Shown here piece by piece: positions 4,211 through 23,832 of a stretch of DNA of 25,581 nucleotides. Origin of the DNA: a virus. The notes below the pieces were generated by a model. It did not search any database. It was not told the DNA's origin and worked only from the letters and a program-made list of their open reading frames with translations. Location of the stretch: the IMG/VR virus record IMGVR_UViG_3300043409_000911, positions 1 to 25,581 of that record. One strand, 5' to 3'. Position 1 is the first letter of the stretch; each line of letters begins with the position of its first letter. Both the position numbers and the translations under genes were made by a program.

Positions 4211-4265
4211 AGAACTAGTGCCATATATTTGCGGTAACTGCTTTGAAGCAACTACTTCCTACCAC

Positions 4266-4294
4266 TTATGCATTTTTTGACAAATTAGTGTCAA
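4266..4294 (-). promoter_or_regulatory. Internal late promoter candidate with palindromic -35
   Basis: On the minus strand TTGACA (4294-4289) is followed after 16-17 bp by TGCATA/GCATAA (about 4272-4266). The -35 box overlaps the stop codon of the 82-aa gene. The -35 is half of a perfect inverted repeat, TTGACA-N6-TGTCAA (4277-4294), so the site could also bind a dimeric regulator. It would give extra transcription of the scaffold and capsid genes. The TATGACA element seen at other promoters of this window is absent here. Confidence 0.45.
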
Positions 4295-4539
4295 TCCACA
4301 ACAGGTTCTCTATTCTTAGTAGCAGTTTCCCGTAGTTGTGTAAGGTAGTTAGATAAGTCGACAAGAGCGTCTGCACGTCCTGCAGAATGAGTTCTTTTTT
4401 CCTCAGAGATGTCTTGAGATATAACTAAAGCAATTTCCTGCTGTGTCATCACGTGGATGACTTCCATTACAACATCCCAAGCAGGATTTTTTGTAAAACT
4501 TAGAGCGGCGATTGTTTCTTTGCTAGGTACGTAGTCCAT
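4291..4539 (-). CDS. Hypothetical small protein between portal and scaffold
   Basis: This 82-aa protein is not recognised. It is mostly helical: residues 15-45 (NPAWDVVMEVIHVMTQQEIA) and 50-75 (SAGRADALVDLSNYLTQLRE). Small helical proteins with a similar 'W..v...l......ve.l....' pattern are common between portal and scaffold genes in podo-like phages, where they are usually unnamed. Only three bases separate it from the portal start side of the operon, and its TGA lies inside the -35 box of the promoter candidate that serves the scaffold. Confidence 0.6.
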   Translation of the reverse strand: MDYVPSKETIAALSFTKNPAWDVVMEVIHVMTQQEIALVISQDISEEKRTHSAGRADALVDLSNYLTQLRETATKNREPVVD

Positions 4540-9535: not shown

Positions 9536-9611
9536 TGGGAGCAGGGGATGGACTCGCACCATCGACCTCTGAATTATGAATCCAGTGTTCTACTGTCTGA
9601 ACTACCCTGCC
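9536..9611 (-). tRNA. tRNA-Met (CAT)
   Basis: The minus strand folds into a 76-nt cloverleaf with an encoded CCA. The acceptor is GGCAGGG with CCCTGCT (first pair G-U). The D stem is GTTC/GAAC, the anticodon stem CTGGA/TTCAG with loop TTCATAA (anticodon CAT), and the T stem GATGG/CCATC. Two odd details are seen: the D loop AGACAGTA lacks the usual GG pair, and the T loop is TGCGAGT with G at position 55 in place of T. The loss of both partners of the normal 18-55 contact is unusual. CAT could also be read as isoleucine-2 after lysidine modification; the sequence alone does not settle this. Confidence 0.88.
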
Positions 9612-9645: not shown

Positions 9646-9904
9646 TCCGTAACGCAACTTCGGGTGCTTATGACACAGACCCCCTCCCCCCCTTGAATGT
9701 CATAGACAGGCGGGTTGGCACGGTGTATGTACGAGGTCGATTGAGAGGGCTTGGGACTGGTTGCCCTAGGGTTGGTATGGACTGGTGCTCTGGAGTAACT
9801 CTACGGGGCTGCTAGGGGGCTTTATTAGATGGTTGCCACACGGTCTAGACTATTACTTGTAATAGGGGGTGATAGTGGTCATATGTTCACTAGTGGTGGG
9901 CACT
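9646..9904. other. Non-coding region with palindromes
   Basis: No convincing gene is seen here. It holds TATGACA at 9669-9675 (+) and its reverse TGTCATA at 9698-9704, enclosing a C-rich tract. A + strand promoter-like pair TAGACA-N17-TATGTA begins at 9702. CTATTAC-TT-GTAATAG (9850-9865) is a perfect 7-bp dyad. GTGGTC-ATAT-GTTCAC (9875-9890) is an imperfect copy of the 12.06-kb operator palindromes, and TAGTG-N5-CACTA (9891-9905) abuts the terminator. It separates two leftward blocks and probably carries regulation for the late block. Confidence 0.5.
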
Positions 9905-9928
9905 AAAAACCCCACTGCTTAGGTGGGG
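9905..9928 (-). terminator. Rho-independent terminator after the 187-aa gene
   Basis: On the minus strand CCCCAC-CTAAGCA-GTGGGG forms a 6-bp GC-rich stem with a 7-nt loop, followed directly by five T. It is 25 bases past the stop of the leftward gene 9953-10516 and closes the GC-rich leftward block. Confidence 0.85.
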
Positions 9929-9952
9929 CTGATAGGAGGCTGGTGGGGCCGC

Positions 9953-10516
9953 TTAGGACTTGGTGGCGAGGCGGCGGGCTTGGGCGGCTTGGAGGTCAGC
10001 GATAGCGAGGCTGGCGTAGTTGAGTGCGTCCCAGAGGCCGTGGTGATACTCAGGCTTGGAGTCGAGGAAGCCGTTGATTGCGTCGTCGTTGTGACCGTTG
10101 GTGTAGTCACGGAGGTTGCTGAGCGTCTGGATGGCCTTGGCGACCTGAGCGTGGGTGAACGAGAGGCGTGGGAGGGAGCCGTAGCGAGTGCGTGGTGCTG
10201 GTGCTGCAGGTGCGTCTGGTGCGTAGTTGAGGAGGACGTGGCCCTTGGCGTGGAGGGCACGGATGACATCGATGTGGGGGTAGGCGACTTTGACATCGAA
10301 CTGTTGAGGGCGGCTCTCGGTCTTCACGACGGCGAGGTTGCGATTGACGAGGTACTCGAGGTAAGCCTTCTCTGCTGCGGTGAGGTCACGGAGTCGTGTG
10401 TAGGACTTGGGTCCGTAGACGAGTTTCGTGAGGACACTGACTTCGCCGTGCGAGACTGCGAGGTCGATGGAGAGGGCTGCTGCGAGGACGTGACCGTATT
10501 GGGTTGTGTGGTTCAT
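9953..10516 (-). CDS. Hypothetical protein, GC-rich block
   Basis: The 187-aa product is not recognised. It begins MNHTTQYGHVLAAALSIDLA and includes a segment like a DNA-binding helical domain at about 27-65 (LTKLVYGPKSYTRLRDLTAAEKAYLEYLVNRNLA). An alanine/proline-rich linker is found at about 100-113, and a helical C-terminal half follows. The start at 10516 is chosen because its leader ACACCCT-ATG matches the leader of the next upstream gene and a promoter lies right before it. It is the last gene of its unit and is followed by a strong terminator. Codon use is GC-rich, in contrast to the AT-richer head module. Confidence 0.65.
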   Translation of the reverse strand: MNHTTQYGHVLAAALSIDLAVSHGEVSVLTKLVYGPKSYTRLRDLTAAEKAYLEYLVNRNLAVVKTESRPQQFDVKVAYPHIDVIRALHAKGHVLLNYAPDAPAAPAPRTRYGSLPRLSFTHAQVAKAIQTLSNLRDYTNGHNDDAINGFLDSKPEYHHGLWDALNYASLAIADLQAAQARRLATKS

Positions 10517-10524
10517 AGGGTGTG

Positions 10525-10553
10525 GACTGTGGAAGAATTGTGCTGGTTGTCAA
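10525..10553 (-). promoter_or_regulatory. Promoter of the 187-aa gene
   Basis: On the minus strand ATTGACA (-35 at 10553-10548) is followed by a 17-bp spacer and ACAGTC. The block TTCTTCCACAGTC is identical to the corresponding part of the promoter at 12011-12039, which supports a shared function even though the -10 is not canonical. TATGACA is present upstream (10570-10576) but in the inverted orientation. Confidence 0.5.
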
Positions 10554-10628
10554 TAGCGGGGATGGGCTGTATGACAGAGGGCTATGAGGTGGGGGTGTGT
10601 GTGGTGCGGGTGGATATCAGGGCCGACA

Positions 10629-10659
10629 CCCTCGGAGGCCGTGGCGAGCCTCCTGAGGG
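10629..10659 (-). terminator. Stem-loop after the zinc/OB-like gene
   Basis: The minus strand forms CCCTC(A)GGAGGC - 8-nt loop - GCCTCCGAGGG, an 11-bp stem with one bulged A, 15 bases after the stop at 10675. There is no U-tract, so termination without Rho is uncertain; it may protect the 3' end of the message. Confidence 0.5.
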
Positions 10660-10674
10660 GTCAGGCGTGGAGGT

Positions 10675-11691
10675 TTAGGAGATGGCCTTGAAGGTGGGGC
10701 GGGAGCCGAAATAGAAGCCAGCGTCCTTGGAGGCTTCGATGGTGATGGTCTGGGTGAATTTGGTGCCGATGACTGGGAGGTTCGACTCTGCGAGGGTGTC
10801 GGACAATTTCGATGGCACCGACTGCCAGACCTTGTCTCCTTCGCTGGTGACGAAGAGACCCTTGAGCGTGGAGGTAGTCTGGTACCCGAAATTGCTTTCG
10901 ACCCACTTCGTGGAGACGAAGGAGCCAGTGAGCGAGATGCGACCATCGAGTGCGGGGCGAGCAGCGATACCTGCTTGGCGAGCGGCCTCCGAATTTTGAC
11001 GTTGGGCGACACGGACTTCTGTCTCCTTAGCCCAGCCTTCAGCCTTGTCCCAGCGAGCGGCGGAGAGGAATAATTCACGCTGCTTGTCGCTGGCGAATTG
11101 GTAATCGTACTGGCGGCACTTGGAGCCGATGGTCTGGACGATGAACAACGACTTACGGAGCACGTGGAGTGCGTCGTCGCTGGTCACGCCTAACTCGGCA
11201 GCCTTGGCGGCGATGATGGACTCGAAACCGCCACGCTCTGCAGCGAGGGCGAGCGAGAGGGCAGCGAAGAGCACTGGGTCCTTGGCCTCGCACTCAGCGA
11301 GGAGAGCGTCACGCTTGCGGCTGGTGGCGAGTGCCTCTGCACGGGCAGCGAGGCGATTCCACTGGTGCTCGTCGGAGGGCAGACCAATCTTGGTCGAGCA
11401 CTGGTGACCGATGGCGACGTTTTCACCTGAGGGCACGTGCTTGGCGACGGCGAAGTACGCACAGCGGGTGGTGCCGCAATGCTTGCAGGTGGTAGGTGCG
11501 GCCTCGGTGCCGAACCACGCCTTGTACTGGCTGCGGAGTTCAGCGATGGCTGCGGCGGCTTGCTCAGGGTGGCCTTTGAATTCGGTCCAGATGTGTGACT
11601 CCTCACGAACGTCGATGTAGCCGACGATGCGGTAATCACTGGTCTGGAAGGCAGATGGGCGGTGGATGTCAGTGCGGGTAGCGTGTTTCAT
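10675..11691 (-). CDS. Zinc-finger plus OB-like domain protein of unknown function
   Basis: The 338-aa product has a probable zinc site with C69, C72, C77 and C98 (TTCKHCGTTRCAYF ... IGHQCST), then a long alanine-rich helical middle (105-250). The C-terminal beta domain at about 252-338 shows GRISLTGSFVSTKWVES, later KVWQSVPSKL and FGYQTTSTLKGLFV, ending DAGFYFGSRPTFKA. The order zinc motif plus terminal 'tG.v.s.k....fg...k' OB-like domain recalls an unnamed phage protein family known mainly from actinophages. A nucleic-acid-binding role is likely but not proven. Start 11691 is supported by a good promoter (TTGACA-N17-TCTATA) eight bases upstream. Confidence 0.7.
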   Translation of the reverse strand: MKHATRTDIHRPSAFQTSDYRIVGYIDVREESHIWTEFKGHPEQAAAAIAELRSQYKAWFGTEAAPTTCKHCGTTRCAYFAVAKHVPSGENVAIGHQCSTKIGLPSDEHQWNRLAARAEALATSRKRDALLAECEAKDPVLFAALSLALAAERGGFESIIAAKAAELGVTSDDALHVLRKSLFIVQTIGSKCRQYDYQFASDKQRELFLSAARWDKAEGWAKETEVRVAQRQNSEAARQAGIAARPALDGRISLTGSFVSTKWVESNFGYQTTSTLKGLFVTSEGDKVWQSVPSKLSDTLAESNLPVIGTKFTQTITIEASKDAGFYFGSRPTFKAIS

Positions 11692-11698
11692 AGGGTGC

Positions 11699-11727
11699 TA
11701 TAGAAGCGAATTGCTGGTGCGTGTCAA
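11699..11727 (-). promoter_or_regulatory. Sigma70-type promoter of the zinc/OB-like gene
   Basis: On the minus strand TTGACA (11727-11722), 17-bp spacer, TCTATA (11704-11699). The same -35/spacer/-10 combination occurs at 15131-15159. The region above -35 reads into the end of the previous gene and lacks a TATGACA element. Confidence 0.65.
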
Positions 11728-11736
11728 TAGCGGGGA

Positions 11737-12000
11737 TTAACCAGCAAACTGGTTGACGAAACGCTGGGCGGTGCGGCGGGAATCTGTCCAGCCTTCAAGG
11801 ATGTAAAACTCGGCGGTATCATAAAGCCAAGTCAGGGTGTCGCCAGCCCGTTGGACCTCATTGAGGCAGGAGGCGGGGTGGGACTGGAGGCGGCCCAGCC
11901 AGATGCGGTGGGCTGCTGGTGAGTGTGGACCGAAACCTCGGTCTAGGAGGATGGTCTGAATCTGGTGCTGGAGTTCAGCGATGGTGGTGGGGGTGCTCAT
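11737..12000 (-). CDS. Hypothetical small protein
   Basis: This 87-aa protein (MSTPTTIAELQHQIQTILLD...) is not recognised. It is helical and polar, with two tryptophan-bearing segments (HRIWLGRLQSHP and TLTWLYDTAEFYILEGW). A longer frame opens at 12183, but it would run through the promoter, the TATGACA element and the tandem palindromes, so the ATG at 12000 with leader AAGGTCTACT is chosen. It ends just before the promoter of the zinc/OB-like gene. Confidence 0.65.
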   Translation of the reverse strand: MSTPTTIAELQHQIQTILLDRGFGPHSPAAHRIWLGRLQSHPASCLNEVQRAGDTLTWLYDTAEFYILEGWTDSRRTAQRFVNQFAG

Positions 12001-12010
12001 AGTAGACCTT

Positions 12011-12057
12011 GACTGTGGAAGAATAGTGCCACCTGTCAATCCTACCGTAGTGTCATA
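12011..12057 (-). promoter_or_regulatory. Promoter with TATGACA element, 87-aa gene
   Basis: On the minus strand TATGACA (12057-12051) is followed after 11 bp by TTGACA (12039-12034), then 17 bp and ACAGTC. The downstream block TTCTTCCACAGTC is shared with the promoter at 10525-10553. It is adjacent to the palindrome pair at 12063-12095, which could therefore repress or activate it. Confidence 0.6.
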
Positions 12058-12062
12058 AAGTA

Positions 12063-12095
12063 GTGAACAAATGTTCACCGTGAACGGGTGTTCAC
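12063..12095. promoter_or_regulatory. Tandem palindromic operators
   Basis: Two perfect 16-bp dyads stand one base apart: GTGAACAAATGTTCAC (12063-12078) and GTGAACGGGTGTTCAC (12080-12095). The arms are identical and only the four central bases differ, as expected for dimeric repressor sites. Centre-to-centre distance is 17 bp. They lie between a leftward promoter (12011-12057) and a rightward promoter-like element (12127-12172). No regulator can be assigned. Confidence 0.65.
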
Positions 12096-12126
12096 CTATC
12101 GTAAACTTTCGTGCCAACTCGCTGGT

Positions 12127-12172
12127 TATGACACAGCCCATCTGGGGTTTATGACACAGTGGGCTATTGACA
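12127..12172 (+). promoter_or_regulatory. Rightward TATGACA-type promoter, region A
   Basis: Two TATGACA elements (12127-12133 and 12150-12156) are followed after 10 bp by TTGACA (12167-12172). The sequence CGTGCCAACTC precedes the first element by 6 bp, exactly as at 15973-15996. No canonical -10 is found 17 bp further (CTCACA), although TAATC after the -35 is shared with region B. No annotated protein gene lies downstream on this strand, so it would drive the short element at about 12203-12318. Confidence 0.5.
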
Positions 12173-12202
12173 GGGCTAATCATTAGTAACTCACATTGGT
12201 AT

Positions 12203-12318
12203 TCCCTGCGGAGCCAGTATCTATGCGGGTTTCAGGGCATACACGCACAATTGCCTCAGGACCGCATTGTCATAGGGTGTCAATAGTCTGTATAAGGTCG
12301 AATCAAAGTGCCTCCTGA
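12203..12318 (+). ncRNA. Candidate small RNA or micro-ORF, element A
   Basis: The 18-nt block CCAGTATCTATGCGGGTT (12214-12231) is identical to one at 15851-15868 and stands exactly 41 nt after the TTGACA box in both places. A hairpin follows in both copies (here GGCA 12236-12239 with TGCC 12252-12255). The bounds are an estimate from promoter spacing to the end of the reading frame. The block includes ATG (12223) and opens a 31-codon frame to TGA at 12316-12318, starting MRVSGHTR; the copy in region B starts MRVPRHHR. Differences fall mainly on first and second codon positions, which favours RNA over peptide, but both remain open. Confidence 0.4.
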
Positions 12319-12471
12319 GCCATCCTAGGGGGTATAGCATAGAGATTCTAGAGACTCGCAGGGATTGGTCAGGCGACGCTTTCGGGGTGGGGTTGATACC
12401 AGTACTAAGACCATATGACAAAGCGTTCTAGAGCCATCCTAGATAGCCTAGCGTGGAATTCACACGGGCAC
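12319..12471. other. Non-coding stretch with direct repeat
   Basis: No gene is supported. The 12-mer GAGCCATCCTAG occurs at 12317-12328 and again at 12431-12442. An isolated TATGACA is at 12414-12420 (+), without a -35 box at the usual distance. TGTCATA (12268-12274) and TGTCAA (12278-12283) sit together a little upstream. A 66-codon minus-strand frame covers part of it but has no promoter or family resemblance. Confidence 0.4.
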
Positions 12472-12494
12472 AAAAAAACCCCGCCGAAGCGGGG
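12472..12494 (-). terminator. Rho-independent terminator after endolysin
   Basis: On the minus strand CCCCGC-TTCG-GCGGGG (a very stable 6-bp stem with a TTCG tetraloop) is followed by seven T. It lies 17 bases beyond the endolysin stop codon. Confidence 0.92.
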
Positions 12495-12511
12495 CTGGGT
12501 TGGTCAGTGGC

Positions 12512-12910
12512 TCACTTAAGAGCGGACCGAACCTTGGACCAGTAGCCGATGGTGCCGACTTTTTTCCAGCCACTGGGGCCGCCGTTCCAGATACGGGCAC
12601 GGTCTTCGTCGGTCACCGCACGGCCCAGTCGCTTGGACGTGGCGTAGAGGTCGATGTACTTGCGGCAGATGTCACGGGCCTTGTCAGGGCTGAAGGCATC
12701 GTCGTGCACGTAGCGGGTGCCGTAGGCACGGTTCACGTCGACGATGACCACCTGCCACACCTGTAGGATTCCTTTGGCACGGCCTTGGTCGCCGATGGCG
12801 TTGGCCTTACCGTTGGATTCCACCTGCGTGAGGGCGGCGATGAGCCTGTCGCTGACCTGCCCTTGGACGGGCGAGACTGCGAAGGCGAGAGCGAGGAGTA
12901 GGTATTTCAT
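12512..12910 (-). CDS. Secreted lysozyme/transglycosylase-like endolysin
   Basis: The 132-aa product starts with a signal peptide or signal-anchor, MKYLLLALAFAVSPVQG (residues 1-17). A soluble-lytic-transglycosylase-like domain follows: the probable catalytic glutamate E31 in LTQVESNGKANAIGD, then QGRAKGILQV (42-51, the conserved 'G..Q' part), and near the end ARIWNGGPSGWKK and GYWSKV. This order (E-S, G-x-x-Q, and W/Y-N-G-G) is typical of the family that cleaves peptidoglycan. Export by the host Sec system would release or activate it in the periplasm. Start 12910 is preferred over a 12982 extension because of the signal sequence and the promoter at 12920-12965. A strong terminator follows, so it is its own transcription unit. 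Confidence 0.82.
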   Translation of the reverse strand: MKYLLLALAFAVSPVQGQVSDRLIAALTQVESNGKANAIGDQGRAKGILQVWQVVIVDVNRAYGTRYVHDDAFSPDKARDICRKYIDLYATSKRLGRAVTDEDRARIWNGGPSGWKKVGTIGYWSKVRSALK

Positions 12911-12919
12911 ATCGTGGTT

Positions 12920-12965
12920 GAATGTGGTCAATGGGTGACCAGCGGCAAGGGGCTGGCGTGTCATA
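12920..12965 (-). promoter_or_regulatory. Endolysin promoter with TATGACA in a hairpin
   Basis: On the minus strand TATGACA (12965-12959), 10 bp, TTGCCG (12948-12943), 17 bp, ACATTC. The element lies in the loop side of an inverted repeat: TGGCGT-GTCAT-ACGCCA, flanked by GGGG and CCCC (about 12949-12977). The hairpin follows directly on the stop of the preceding gene, so it may also act as its terminator. Confidence 0.55.
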
Positions 12966-12986
12966 CGCCAACCCCCTAGCACCGCC

Positions 12987-13460
12987 TTAGCCGAAGACCA
13001 CGTCGAGTGCTACGATGTACTGGAGGAGGGCATCGCTGACCACGCCATCGAAGTCGAGGTCGCTTTCCAAGTCGTACTTGGCGGAGTCGTTGCCCTCTTC
13101 GACAAACTCCAACAACTGGAGGAAGCCGACAGCCTTCACACGGAGCCAATCAGGCTGCTTCTTATCCTTGGTGAAGCGGCGGAGGCGGCTCAGTGCCAGT
13201 TTAGGGGTGATGACGGTGTACTTGGTTTCCTTGCCGAGGTCGTCAGGATTGAGACGAAGGCGGAAGGACCAGTCGAGGCGAGGGGCCTTCCCTGATGGCG
13301 TGTCCAAGCCGCTGGTGGCGAAGGATGCGTCGAGGAAGCCGTTCTTGTTGAGCCGCTCATCGGTCTGGAACCACGCTGGGTTCAGGCCAGACTCCAAAGC
13401 GGAGTTGAGGAGCGATGCGATTTCGTTAGTGACCTTGATGTTTTGTAGTAGTTTGTTCAT
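12987..13460 (-). CDS. Hypothetical protein
   Basis: The 157-aa product is not recognised. Residues 1-35 are helical (MNKLLQNIKVTNEIASLLNS), the middle is charged with a beta section (RLDWSFRLRLNPDDLGKETKYTVI), and the C-terminal 60 residues are acidic and helical (FLQLLEFVEEGNDSAKYDLES). The start at 13460 is used because promoter and TATGACA element lie directly upstream; a longer frame to 13628 would run through them. The gene is a monocistronic unit bounded by hairpin/promoter elements at both ends. Confidence 0.65.
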   Translation of the reverse strand: MNKLLQNIKVTNEIASLLNSALESGLNPAWFQTDERLNKNGFLDASFATSGLDTPSGKAPRLDWSFRLRLNPDDLGKETKYTVITPKLALSRLRRFTKDKKQPDWLRVKAVGFLQLLEFVEEGNDSAKYDLESDLDFDGVVSDALLQYIVALDVVFG

Positions 13461-13469
13461 AGGACTTAT

Positions 13470-13515
13470 GAAGGTGTAGAAGTATTGTTCTGCGTCAATG
13501 ACCTGCTTTGTCATA
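13470..13515 (-). promoter_or_regulatory. TATGACA-type promoter of the 157-aa gene
   Basis: On the minus strand TATGACA (13515-13509), exactly 10 bp, TTGACG (13498-13493), 17 bp, ACCTTC. The TATGACA element overlaps the stop codon of the upstream gene 13511-13708, which shows that the site was kept within coding sequence. Confidence 0.6.
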
Positions 13516-13708
13516 CGTCGTCCTCTGGGGCTGGGCTGATGATACCAGCCTTGATGAGAGCGACGGCCTGACGGCCTAGGGAGCCTTGCAACTGCCAGAC
13601 GACTTGGGTGTCGACCAGATACTGCCAAGCCTCCAGCACGTCCTCTTCGCCGCCCTCAGCACGGCCCTCGACCAACTCGACGGCACGGTAGATGGTCAAC
13701 TTGCTCAC
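13511..13708 (-). CDS. Small protein, common phage 'WxLQGxxGRxA' family
   Basis: The 65-aa product has the pattern YRAVELVEGRAEGGEEDVLE then AWQYLVDTQVVWQLQGSLGR and QAVALIKAG. The W.LQG..GR.A..LI..G signature (about residues 38-57) belongs to a small family found in many unrelated phages (I think DUF7417), of unknown function. Translation starts at GTG, which overlaps the preceding TGA by four bases (GTGA, 13705-13708), so it depends on translation of the upstream gene. Confidence 0.75.
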   Translation of the reverse strand: MSKLTIYRAVELVEGRAEGGEEDVLEAWQYLVDTQVVWQLQGSLGRQAVALIKAGIISPAPEDDV

Positions 13709-14169
13709 TTCGCACCTGCCTTTCCGTTGAGGACGATTGCGTTCTCGGTCCAGATGTAAACGATGTCGTCGACGGTGCGTTTGAGAATTTTAACCAGCGT
13801 GGGGCTTTGTGTTGAATCGACGCTATCGTCGTCTCTAATGTCATATTCGTGGTGCCAGATAATTTCTAGCGGTATGCGTTTAGTCGTGGCCTTCAAATAA
13901 GCCTCAAACAATAAACCTTTATACGTTCCAAAATAACCCTTCTGGATTACGTGCACGTGAAACGTTACGTTGTCAGGCGAACGTGTCACCCAGATGGTAT
14001 GCTTGATATTATTTTCTTGGTCATCTAAATCAAAAGATTTAGAAACAGAAAGTCGAATAGGATTTAACAGGTCGTCTGTAACGTCGGCAAAGAATTTTCT
14101 GAGCGGACGGTAGTCTGTCGAGTCTCCAATCAATTCGATTGGCTTGCGTGTGCGGCGTGGGATTTTCAT
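13705..14169 (-). CDS. Hypothetical protein
   Basis: The 154-aa product is not recognised. It begins MKIPRRTRKPIELIGD, has a beta-rich centre (HTIWVTRSPDNVTFHVHVIQ, then GYFGTYKGLLFEAY) and ends in a charged tail GKAGAK. The start at 14169 follows a C/A-rich leader (CCCACTACCACCACA). Base composition in this gene is AT-richer than in the genes on both sides, a sign of a separate origin within the block. It is coupled to the next gene by a GTGA overlap. Confidence 0.65.
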   Translation of the reverse strand: MKIPRRTRKPIELIGDSTDYRPLRKFFADVTDDLLNPIRLSVSKSFDLDDQENNIKHTIWVTRSPDNVTFHVHVIQKGYFGTYKGLLFEAYLKATTKRIPLEIIWHHEYDIRDDDSVDSTQSPTLVKILKRTVDDIVYIWTENAIVLNGKAGAK

Positions 14170-14196
14170 TGTGGTGGTAGTGGGTTGGTAGATATC

Positions 14197-14242
14197 GAAT
14201 CTGGTGATGCGTTGCCCGAAAGCAAGAGAGCGGCGTGTCATA
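14197..14242 (-). promoter_or_regulatory. TATGACA-type promoter in a hairpin
   Basis: On the minus strand TATGACA (14242-14236), exactly 10 bp, TTGCTT (14225-14220), 17 bp, AGATTC. As at the endolysin promoter, the element is in an inverted repeat: CGGCGT-GTCAT-ACGCCG, extended by GAGAG and CTCTC. It lies just after the stop of gene 14259-15110. Confidence 0.55.
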
Positions 14243-14258
14243 CGCCGCCCTCTCAGTT

Positions 14259-15110
14259 TCAGATGATGCGGCCTTCCACTGCGGCTTTCGCACGGTCAAG
14301 CAGGTTGATAGCCTCGTCGTTGCGGCTTCGTTTTTTCAGCGGTGCCAGTGCTTCTGAGATGTCAGCGGCTTGCGTGATGACTGTTGCCCACGCCCTAATT
14401 TCAGAAGGCGTTCCATTGAAGGACGACACTCCGCCGCCAAGATTATGGTCAACGTCAATCGACCAGCCACCAAGCACTGCGTCGCTTGATTTACCTTTGA
14501 CGTGCTCTTGGCGTGAGCCGTAATAGAGTTGTGCACCTCGGAAGAATCCATTCTCGTCGACAGAGAAACGAAGATGTGTTTCCCATTCTACTTCAACGGT
14601 CTTGTTGCCCTGATAGTCTGGTGCATAAACACGCTCGACTGATTTAATTGAACGTAATCCACCTTGCGGCGTGACATTTAACACGAAACACGTCGTGCCA
14701 TAGTGGTTCCCAGATTCTTTCCAGCCACGCTCTTTGCGTACAATTTCATAGCGGGTGGCATAGTCGTCGGTGATGTCGATTAAAGAGCCGACGGTGATGT
14801 TACCAATGCTTGCTGTGATGTTGGAACGTGCTTCGGCGATGCGAGCCGCACCGAACGTTGCCTTGTCCCAAGCCCAGTAGGCTTCTTGGAATGCTTTCTC
14901 AGCAGCGTTGTCTGCGTCGAGTGCTTCGATTTGCTTTTTGGTAGCAGCAGCATCGAGGAGTGCGGATGCTTTAGTCAATCGACCCGTGGGGGTCTTAGCG
15001 GCATTCAACTCGACAAACTTTGCAGTCTTGTTTGCCTGAGTCAGTGCTTCGCTGGTTTCGATGAAGACCTTCGCCAGAGCGGCTAGGTCGGATGGTATTG
15101 TGTGGTTCAT
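14259..15110 (-). CDS. Hypothetical protein, helical N-terminus and beta C-terminus
   Basis: The 283-aa product is not recognised. Residues 1-110 form long alanine-rich helices, probably coiled coil (LAALAKVFIETSEALTQANK and AATKKQIEALDADNAAEKAF). Residues 120-245 are beta-rich, with NITVGSLIDITDDYATRYEI and later SVERVYAPDY. The end is helical and basic (KKRSRNDEAINLLDRAKAAV). No signal peptide or catalytic motif is seen. The start at 15110 is supported by a good promoter (TCTATA at 15131-15136) and leader CTACCCACACTACT. It is one of several independent units of the leftward block. Confidence 0.65.
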   Translation of the reverse strand: MNHTIPSDLAALAKVFIETSEALTQANKTAKFVELNAAKTPTGRLTKASALLDAAATKKQIEALDADNAAEKAFQEAYWAWDKATFGAARIAEARSNITASIGNITVGSLIDITDDYATRYEIVRKERGWKESGNHYGTTCFVLNVTPQGGLRSIKSVERVYAPDYQGNKTVEVEWETHLRFSVDENGFFRGAQLYYGSRQEHVKGKSSDAVLGGWSIDVDHNLGGGVSSFNGTPSEIRAWATVITQAADISEALAPLKKRSRNDEAINLLDRAKAAVEGRII

Positions 15111-15130
15111 AGTAGTGTGGGTAGATTAGG

Positions 15131-15176
15131 TATAGAATAGATATTCTGGTGGATGTCAACAGGGTGCTGTGTCATA
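15131..15176 (-). promoter_or_regulatory. Best TATGACA-type promoter
   Basis: On the minus strand TATGACA (15176-15170), exactly 10 bp, TTGACA (15159-15154), 17 bp, TCTATA (15136-15131), ATG 20 bases later. All three boxes are complete, so this is the best single model of the class. Confidence 0.75.
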
Positions 15177-15177
15177 C

Positions 15178-15501
15178 TCAGGCAGCCCAGTCGAAGGGCT
15201 TTCCGCTCTTCTTCTCGACTGTGTGAGCCAACTGGCGAAGGGCTTGGAGGGTGCGGTAAATCTCACCAGCGGAGACACGTTGCGACGAGCCGAAGTTGAT
15301 AACTCCGCCGCCGACATTGACAACCTGCAACAGGCAGTAGCCGTTGAGGCCCTTCTCTGCGTAGATGTGTCCGATGCGAGCCTCTAACGTGGCTGGCGTT
15401 TTTGTGGTGTCCTTCAGCCAAGCCGTCTGGGGTAGGCCCAAACTTTCGTTGAGCCATTCACAGGCGAGGGTGATATCTTTTGATGTAGTGCGTGATGCCA
15501 T
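15178..15501 (-). CDS. Hypothetical protein
   Basis: The 107-aa product (MASRTTSKDITLACEWLNES...) is not recognised. It has a helical first half, then a GGGVINFGSSQRVSAGEIYR segment at about residues 69-88 and a helical end (TLQALRQLAHTVEKKSG). It resembles small alpha/beta proteins without a known role. A longer frame to 15657 exists, but the ATG at 15501 is preceded by the C/A-rich leader CCCACACACACTACT used by other genes here. It follows the 64-aa gene closely and probably shares its promoter. Confidence 0.6.
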   Translation of the reverse strand: MASRTTSKDITLACEWLNESLGLPQTAWLKDTTKTPATLEARIGHIYAEKGLNGYCLLQVVNVGGGVINFGSSQRVSAGEIYRTLQALRQLAHTVEKKSGKPFDWAA

Positions 15502-15523
15502 AGTAGTGTGTGTGGGTTGGAAA

Positions 15524-15718
15524 TTAAACGGTGGTATTACGTGAGGCTTTATATGCCTCAAATCGCAGGTGCTCAGCCTTCTCACATAGTTCCTTGTGGT
15601 ACCTCTTAAGGGCTTTCTTGTGGACTGCGTGAGCGGCCTGAAGTGCAACCCAAGCACGGTGTGCTTTGGCTTCGGCTTCAGTTGCCAGTGAATCGGCGGT
15701 GTGGTATGAGGTAGTCAT
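15524..15718 (-). CDS. Small helical hypothetical protein
   Basis: The 64-aa product is one long helix by composition (ATEAEAKAHRAWVALQAAHA then VHKKALKRYHKELCEKAEHL), rich in A, K, E and H, coiled-coil-like. Function is unknown. The ATG at 15718 follows CTACCACAACA. It is the first gene of the leftward unit, starting from the divergent promoter region at 15.74-15.81 kb. Confidence 0.6.
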   Translation of the reverse strand: MTTSYHTADSLATEAEAKAHRAWVALQAAHAVHKKALKRYHKELCEKAEHLRFEAYKASRNTTV

Positions 15719-15735
15719 TGTTGTGGTAGGAGAGC

Positions 15736-15780
15736 ATACAATCAGGTATAGAACGATTTGTCAAGTCGTGCTGTGTCATA
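15736..15780 (-). promoter_or_regulatory. TATGACA-type promoter, leftward arm of divergent pair
   Basis: On the minus strand TATGACA (15780-15774), 9 bp, TTGACA (15764-15759), 17 bp, TTGTAT. Together with the rightward element it forms the palindrome TGTCATAatactgTATGACA (15774-15793), so two opposite promoters share one binding region. Confidence 0.65.
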
Positions 15781-15786
15781 ATACTG

Positions 15787-15809
15787 TATGACATAGTAGG
15801 TAGTTGACA
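15787..15809 (+). promoter_or_regulatory. TATGACA-type promoter, rightward arm, region B
   Basis: TATGACA (15787-15793), exactly 10 bp, TTGACA (15804-15809). The -10 is not canonical at 17 bp (CTCAGC), but TAATC occurs shortly after the -35 as in region A. Downstream lies no protein gene for 250 bp, only element B. Confidence 0.5.
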
Positions 15810-15839
15810 GAGTCTAATCTTAGGCACTCAGCCTATGTA

Positions 15840-15928
15840 TGGCTGCAAACCCAGTATCTATGCGGGTTCCAAGGCATCATCGCATAAATGCCTATAGAAG
15901 GCGTTTTCTATACCCAGTCCATAGGTAG
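15840..15928 (+). ncRNA. Candidate small RNA or micro-ORF, element B
   Basis: CCAGTATCTATGCGGGTT (15851-15868) is identical to element A at the same 41-nt distance from TTGACA. Hairpins follow: GGCAT-N10-ATGCC (15873-15892) and TATAGAA-GGCGTT-TTCTATA (15893-15912). Then CTATACC (15908-15914) can pair with GGTATAG (15928-15934). A 22-codon frame starts at ATG 15860 (MRVPRHHRINAYRR...) and ends at TAG 15926-15928. The start of the RNA is estimated from promoter spacing. RNA structure is better conserved than the peptide. Confidence 0.42.
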
Positions 15929-16002
15929 GTATAGGCCAAAAGATACCCCCCTTAGAATGGCACCGCTTTAATCGTGCCAACTCAGGGCATATGACATAGC
16001 AC
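15929..16002. other. Control region before the rightward operon
   Basis: TGGCAC-N10-GTGCCA (15958-15979) is a 6-bp inverted repeat. CGTGCCAACTC (15973-15983) with TATGACA six bases later (15990-15996) repeats the arrangement at 12110-12133. No gene is seen. Confidence 0.5.
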
Positions 16003-16048
16003 TATGACATAGCAGGTACTAGACAGATATGCATATGTGTGCTAGTGT
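16003..16048 (+). promoter_or_regulatory. Main promoter of the rightward operon
   Basis: TATGACA (16003-16009), exactly 10 bp, TAGACA (16020-16025), 17 bp, TAGTGT (16043-16048). The first start codon is at 16057, eight bases after the -10, so the message would be leaderless or nearly so. Confidence 0.6.
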
Positions 16049-23594: not shown

Positions 23595-23767
23595 TGGCTA
23601 AGCCTAAACGCAAGTCGAAGACGGAGCCTTACCAGATTAGAATCAACAACGCTAACTGGACCATATACAAACAGTGGTGCGAAAAAGAAGGAGTAGCATT
23701 CTGTTTCCTGTCAAACGCTAGCAGATTCAATCTTTGGGTTTCAGAGATTATCAAAAAGTCTAGGTAG
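23594..23767 (+). CDS. Small hypothetical protein overlapping tRNA-Arg
   Basis: A 57-aa frame runs from ATG 23594 to TAG 23767. The product is basic at the start (MAKPKRKSKT) and then mixed alpha/beta with aromatic residues (QIRINNANWTIYKQWCEKEG, AFCFLSNASRFNLWVSEIIK). It is unrecognised. The last ten bases of the gene, with its TAG, are the first ten bases of the tRNA-Arg acceptor arm, so tRNA processing would remove the stop codon from that transcript. Confidence 0.62.
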   Translation: MAKPKRKSKTEPYQIRINNANWTIYKQWCEKEGVAFCFLSNASRFNLWVSEIIKKSR

Positions 23768-23832
23768 TTCAATGGATAGAACCTCCGCCTTCTAAGCGGA
23801 TGATTTGGGTTCGATTCCCAACCCAGACACCA
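23758..23832 (+). tRNA. tRNA-Arg (TCT)
   Basis: A 75-nt cloverleaf with encoded CCA: acceptor GTCTAGG/CCCAGAC (one A-C mismatch at pair 5), D stem GTTC/GAAC with GG in the loop, anticodon stem TCCGC/GCGGA with loop CTTCTAA (anticodon TCT, codon AGA), and T stem TTGGG/CCCAA with loop TTCGATT. It lies at the end of the rightward operon and supplies a codon often rare in GC-rich hosts. Confidence 0.9.

Follow-up and report, generated by a model that had tools for sequence, protein, structure and literature searches.

The window analyzed here comprises positions 1 to 25,581 (25,581 nt) of the IMG/VR virus record IMGVR_UViG_3300043409_000911, and the elements in question are two short sites in it, A and B. 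An 18-nt core, CCAGTATCTATGCGGGTT, occurs on the plus strand at 12214-12231 (A) and 15851-15868 (B), exactly where an earlier examination of the sequence (the original prediction) had placed it, and no third copy with three or fewer mismatches was found in the window (two copies vs. 0.01 expected). A and B resemble each other beyond the core, over ca. 120 bp: the segment at 12150-12271 (plus strand) is colinear with that at 15787-15908 (plus strand) at a constant offset of 3637, the match being 74% over the final 66 nt. Each segment contains a TTGACA on the plus strand (12167-12172 and 15804-15809) that ends 41 nt ahead of its core, as had been noted. Because both hexamers are located in one colinear duplication, the equal spacing is not independent evidence. 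The TTGACA had been assigned to a TATGACA-type promoter; no -10 hexamer was present 14-20 nt from either one (the best candidates matched at 3 of 6 positions), and neither was called as a promoter. The small stems described after the cores (GGCA/TGCC and GGCAT/ATGCC) were both found, and the GGCAT stem downstream of A and B falls outside the general motif defined below.

The window contains the heptamer TATGACA 22 times (2.9 expected); five of these copies surround A and four surround B, and both tandem and inverted arrangements are seen. Upstream of core A are two tandem, iteron-like TATGACACAG boxes (starting at 12127 and 12150; 12127-12159, plus strand); downstream of it are an inverted box at 12268-12274 (minus strand) and a further plus-strand box starting at 12414. 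Core B is preceded by an inverted pair (15780 minus, 15787 plus; 15774-15796) and followed by tandem TATGACATAGC boxes (15990 and 16003; 15990-16012, plus strand) that lie ahead of a rightward operon. This operon begins ca. 190 nt past core B, contrary to the statement that no protein gene is located downstream. The two elements had also been said to flank a cluster of leftward accessory genes. B, which sits in a divergent early control region, does bound this cluster; A lies inside it, and leftward genes continue on its left (9953-12003, minus strand). TATGACA is often found 9-11 nt ahead of TTGACA and before many genes on both strands (15780-, 15176-, 12057-, 16880+, 22325+), and it is a candidate phage-specific promoter or regulator box. 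As a regulator site it may serve both the gene promoters and the iteron-like arrays.

The exact 18-mer was matched six times in viral contigs, with flanks unlike those of the window, and 26 times in 257 Gb of genomes, compared to ca. 7.5 matches expected in uniform random sequence. Some of the first-pass genome matches were coincidental, e.g. those in L011 and L020, at terminator-like hairpins following tRNA-Gly. TC or TCAG followed the core far more often than chance would allow among the matches, and the longer pattern CCAGTNNYYATGCGGGTTTCAG was therefore adopted; for this degenerate 22-nt pattern, the estimated number of chance matches was well under one. It was found in 95 viral contigs, most of which had a single site, and 49 independent sites were retained once those with shared flanks were removed. 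The consensus, AAA(C/G)CCAGTRTYYATGCGGGTTTCAGC, is ca. 22-26 nt in length, and conservation drops sharply beyond about positions -4 to +23, with A-rich bases before and C or G after. A profile of the motif (CCAGTRTYYATGCGGGTTTCAG) was trained on 78 other sequences, A and B being excluded. It returned 42.7 bits for A (full motif ca. 12210-12236) and 38.7 bits for B (ca. 15847-15873); the next site in the window scored below 8. The claim that A and B are non-coding copies of one conserved element is thus supported. Annotated carriers of the motif included Pseudomonas phages of the Detrevirus group, members of the Chaseviridae (e.g. phiEcoM-GJ1 and SKA49, in a large non-coding region) and many plasmids, the pIGWZ12-type plasmids of E. 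coli among them. In E. coli genomes, 506 of the 515 motif places were on plasmids and nine were chromosomal. One of 398 Pseudomonadota genomes contained the motif.

The sites are mostly non-coding and are associated with replication regions by several independent counts. Only 17 of the 49 sites fell within an open reading frame (ORF) of at least 100 aa, a category that held 80% of positions drawn at random from these contigs. An 8-mer repeated at least three times within 150 bp was present at 18 of 47 sites (38%) vs. 4.2% of control windows. These repeats differ by replicon, being for example CTCTACAAC around site L001 and GGTTAGG around site L169. The TATGACA clusters resemble such iteron-like surroundings, short repeats being clustered at both A and B as in an iteron-type origin. 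Among 57 genes neighboring the sites, three VapE-like genes, three DUF5906 primase-helicase genes and one Rep3 initiator gene were found (seven in total, counted as separate genes), and none of these appeared among the families listed for 54 distal genes, 2.5-6 kb away. Annotation with PHROGs agreed, with primases and helicases among the neighbors.

In four of six inspected plasmid families, the motif was located no more than 400 bp from a replication initiator gene: in a Parabacteroides plasmid and in Pseudomonas MPF_I plasmids, it was upstream of rep by 158 and 348 bp, respectively; an IncFIB Klebsiella plasmid had it 375 bp away from repB, and pIGWZ12-type plasmids of Salmonella as well as E. 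coli had it near the initiator gene. In an Aeromonas plasmid and in pMOL30, it was not within 400 bp of such a gene. A match in a Methylospira plasmid, weak and inside an IS66 element, was left out of the count. The E. coli plasmid pCARB35_04 (4,073 bp) was taken to be a pIGWZ12-type plasmid on account of its size, layout and relaxase class. Upstream of its rep, four iterons come first, then an AT-rich stretch and the DnaA-box-like sequence TGTGGATAA, directly followed by the motif. The origin of pIGWZ12 is likewise reported to lie upstream of rep and to comprise iterons, an AT-rich region and DnaA boxes (PMC6856555).

The single strand can form an imperfect hairpin, AAACCC-A-GTR/TYYA/TGC-GGGTTT, in which one A is bulged and the loop has four bases. 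With DNA parameters, the lowest-energy fold was this hairpin at 26 of 51 sites. At positions -4 to -2, opposite TTT, A is preferred, followed by G; at position 5, A and G interchange opposite T10. These preferences favor the written strand as the folded one, an assignment that we consider suggestive.

A and B are thus interpreted as copies of a widespread cis-acting element, probably acting at the start of replication from an origin-proximal position, a reading that we hold to be about an even proposition. The motif would be a site at which priming or primosome proteins are loaded after the strands have been opened, and the TATGACA boxes would be putative iterons, i.e. binding sites for a phage initiator or regulator. 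The motif may act as a folded single strand, possibly as a single-strand initiation (ssi) hairpin. A near-constant short sequence across unrelated mobile elements implies a conserved cellular reader, and a conserved host protein may be what recognizes it. The phage has replication and recombination functions of its own, since it encodes an IstB/DnaC-like loader and an HTH_36 protein (both at 19.2-20.6 kb of the window), a Rad52-type annealing protein, RusA and two PD-(D/E)XK nucleases; any binder of TATGACA among them is only putative.

Of the closest known systems, two are compared with the motif here and the third, REP/MITE-type palindromic repeats, below. The ssi sites (phiX174-type primosome assembly sites, G4-type origins, Frpo/sso ssDNA promoters) are likewise short, non-coding, capable of forming hairpins, near origins and present in many unrelated replicons. 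The genomes of phiX174 and G4 hold the classical primosome assembly site and the G4 origin, respectively. The sequence-level comparison covered phiX174, G4 and ColE1, from all of which the motif differed; it did not extend to Nomura's (1991) eleven ssi or to that of pIGRK. The ssi-like sequence of pIGRK, which was compared by description only, is a palindrome in a REP module with iterons; it is dispensable and affects copy number and stability (PMC6854812). The iteron origins of Rep plasmids and phages, represented by pIGWZ12, resemble the present sites in that the motif occurs upstream of rep together with repeats, an AT-rich stretch and a DnaA-box-like sequence. They differ in that iterons are specific to the replicon while the motif is constant, and the accessible part of the pIGWZ12 report does not name the motif as a component of the origin (PMC6856555). 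No name or description of the motif was found in the open literature, a search that did not take in most subscription journals or the primary papers on ssi and G-sites; the motif is provisionally regarded as unnamed and novel.

Several observations weigh against a role at replication origins. The best matches to the motif in phiX174, G4 and ColE1 had 11-12 mismatches of 27, ca. the level of shuffled sequences. Pairing in the hairpin is imperfect: opposite G15, position -1 is G, and then unpaired, in 17 of 49 sites. Most of the genes neighboring the motif are not replication genes (integrase, portal and lysozyme genes also occur), and a single plasmid family dominates the count of E. coli plasmids. 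In the window, TATGACA boxes also precede ordinary genes and may therefore be promoter elements. The cumulative GC skew at B (ca. 15800) is at a maximum rather than a minimum, and the direction of transcription switches there. The relatives of this phage, which have ca. 60-68% identity in TerL, are without the motif. In 80 TerL-related loci, no core with three or fewer mismatches was detected apart from one coincidental site with three mismatches; 30 whole contigs of TerL relatives had two three-mismatch sites, as would be expected by chance, and none exceeded 10 bits in the profile scan. A megablast search with the window returned no related phage record, and relatives based on DnaC were rejected as a comparison set for being too distant. 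Finally, ca. 65 copies in a Brachymonas metagenome-assembled genome (MAG), many of them palindromic, and inverted pairs of the core in Clostridia MAGs are not explained by a pure origin role.

These last copies favor the view of the motif as a repeat, mobile or selfish, i.e. a palindrome akin to repetitive extragenic palindromic (REP) sequences or miniature inverted-repeat transposable elements (MITEs), of which the phage acquired a copy that was then duplicated. The Brachymonas copies (G031; contigs L021, L025 and others) are dispersed on the chromosome, and many are near-palindromic units of ca. 60 bp with two inverted cores; one of them (L021, 3782-3811) matches A (12211-12240) at 28 of 30 nt. 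Some of the Clostridia pairs adjoin tRNA genes, and in one proteobacterial MAG two copies share their flanks. In the genome G039, two copies with shared flanks (L130 and L143) were seen within a short MITE-like unit whose ends look like inverted repeats (CTAGTGTAGTGYTGCAC). The phage and plasmid motif, unlike these repeats, is mostly present in single copy and without the inverted partner; near A and B, no inverted core with three or fewer mismatches was found. Drift would not leave more than 20 bases of a repeat intact in many unrelated replicons and across phyla, the viral contigs mostly carry one site, and high copy number was confined to Brachymonas among 200 genomes of the family. We consider this origin of the motif unlikely. 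The palindromes of Brachymonas and Clostridia may represent a family of repeats that has the core in common with the motif or acquired it by capture.

The original prediction took A and B for two copies of a small RNA gene. They would be transcribed rightward from a TATGACA/TTGACA promoter, and the core would serve as a seed or a protein-binding hairpin. The boxes upstream of A and B are indeed common to the promoters of real genes in this phage, a hairpin in which an A is bulged and the loop is UYYA is possible for the top strand of both elements, and the A/G interchange at position 5 preserves the pairing with T10. However, no -10 hexamer follows either TTGACA, no terminator-like site was found on the plus strand soon after either core, and the 49 independent sites had neither the promoter nor the 41-nt spacing, with TTGACA at -41 in none of them. 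The predicted RNA folds (73 nt) were no more stable than those of shuffled sequences (z = +0.41 for A and -1.15 for B), and no Rfam match reached a family threshold, the relaxed matches being far below it. The core had been expected in homologous phages; the 30 related contigs, many of which are fragments, lack it. The TATGACA-N10-TTGACA arrangement was not conserved in the TerL relatives either (a pair in G023 was at a non-matching place), and when viral sequences were scanned for the TATGACA/TTGACA pair, only scattered single matches resulted. Small RNA genes are therefore judged to be decidedly unlikely at A and B.

It is very improbable that a tyrosine recombinase uses the motif for recombination or as an attachment-type site. 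Matches were located directly at tRNA 3' ends in L016, L018, L182 and L239, matches also occurred next to an integrase gene, and in L207 a dif-like site (GTGTCGCATAATGCGTATTATGTTAAAT, ca. 4246-4308) lies just upstream of the motif. Integrase genes, however, were equally frequent among neighboring and distal genes (two in each), and no annotated recombinase was found beside the sites in the E. coli plasmid and the Chaseviridae. A micro-peptide beginning MRV at the conserved ATG, which had been offered as an alternative to the small RNA, is barely credible: the predicted frames exist in both copies (31 codons at 12223-12318 and 22 codons at 15860-15928, both plus strand), but the residues they have in common are mainly the translation of ATGCGGGTT, from which MRV itself arises, frame lengths at the 49 sites were widely scattered (5-162 codons, median 22), a Shine-Dalgarno-like sequence was present at two of the 49, and both frames are judged to be artefacts of ATGCGGGTT.

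Other features of the locus were recorded. A terminator of the leftward transglycosylase gene (endolysin-like, SLT domain) is located between that gene and element A (12477-12496, minus strand). A sequence like GAGCCATCCTAGGGGGTATAG, possibly a second repeated box, occurs twice downstream of A (12317-12343 and 12431-12457) and reversed downstream of B (15939-15965, minus strand). The G+C content is 54-61% over 9700-13700 and 42-51% in most of the remainder of the window, and most of the leftward genes in 9953-15718 were matched neither in Pfam or PHROGs nor in the loci of related phages; because of the raised G+C content and the mostly unmatched genes, this block looks newly acquired. No viral relatives were found for the accessory gene at 14259-15110. 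The window also contains tRNA-Met(CAT) at 9536-9611 (minus strand) and tRNA-Arg(TCT) at 23758-23832 (plus strand).

If the motif is indeed a site for priming or primosome loading near the origin, it would provide a sequence handle for origins in uncultured phages and plasmids, and the handover from very different initiators to host replication proteins would become testable. A broader reading, which we find tentative and rather doubtful, is that a single sequence of ca. 22 nt constitutes a cis component of replication common to unrelated phages and plasmids in several phyla and read by a conserved host factor. Were this true, the motif would be what stays constant while the iterons change with the replicon, and two copies of it would be present in this phage.

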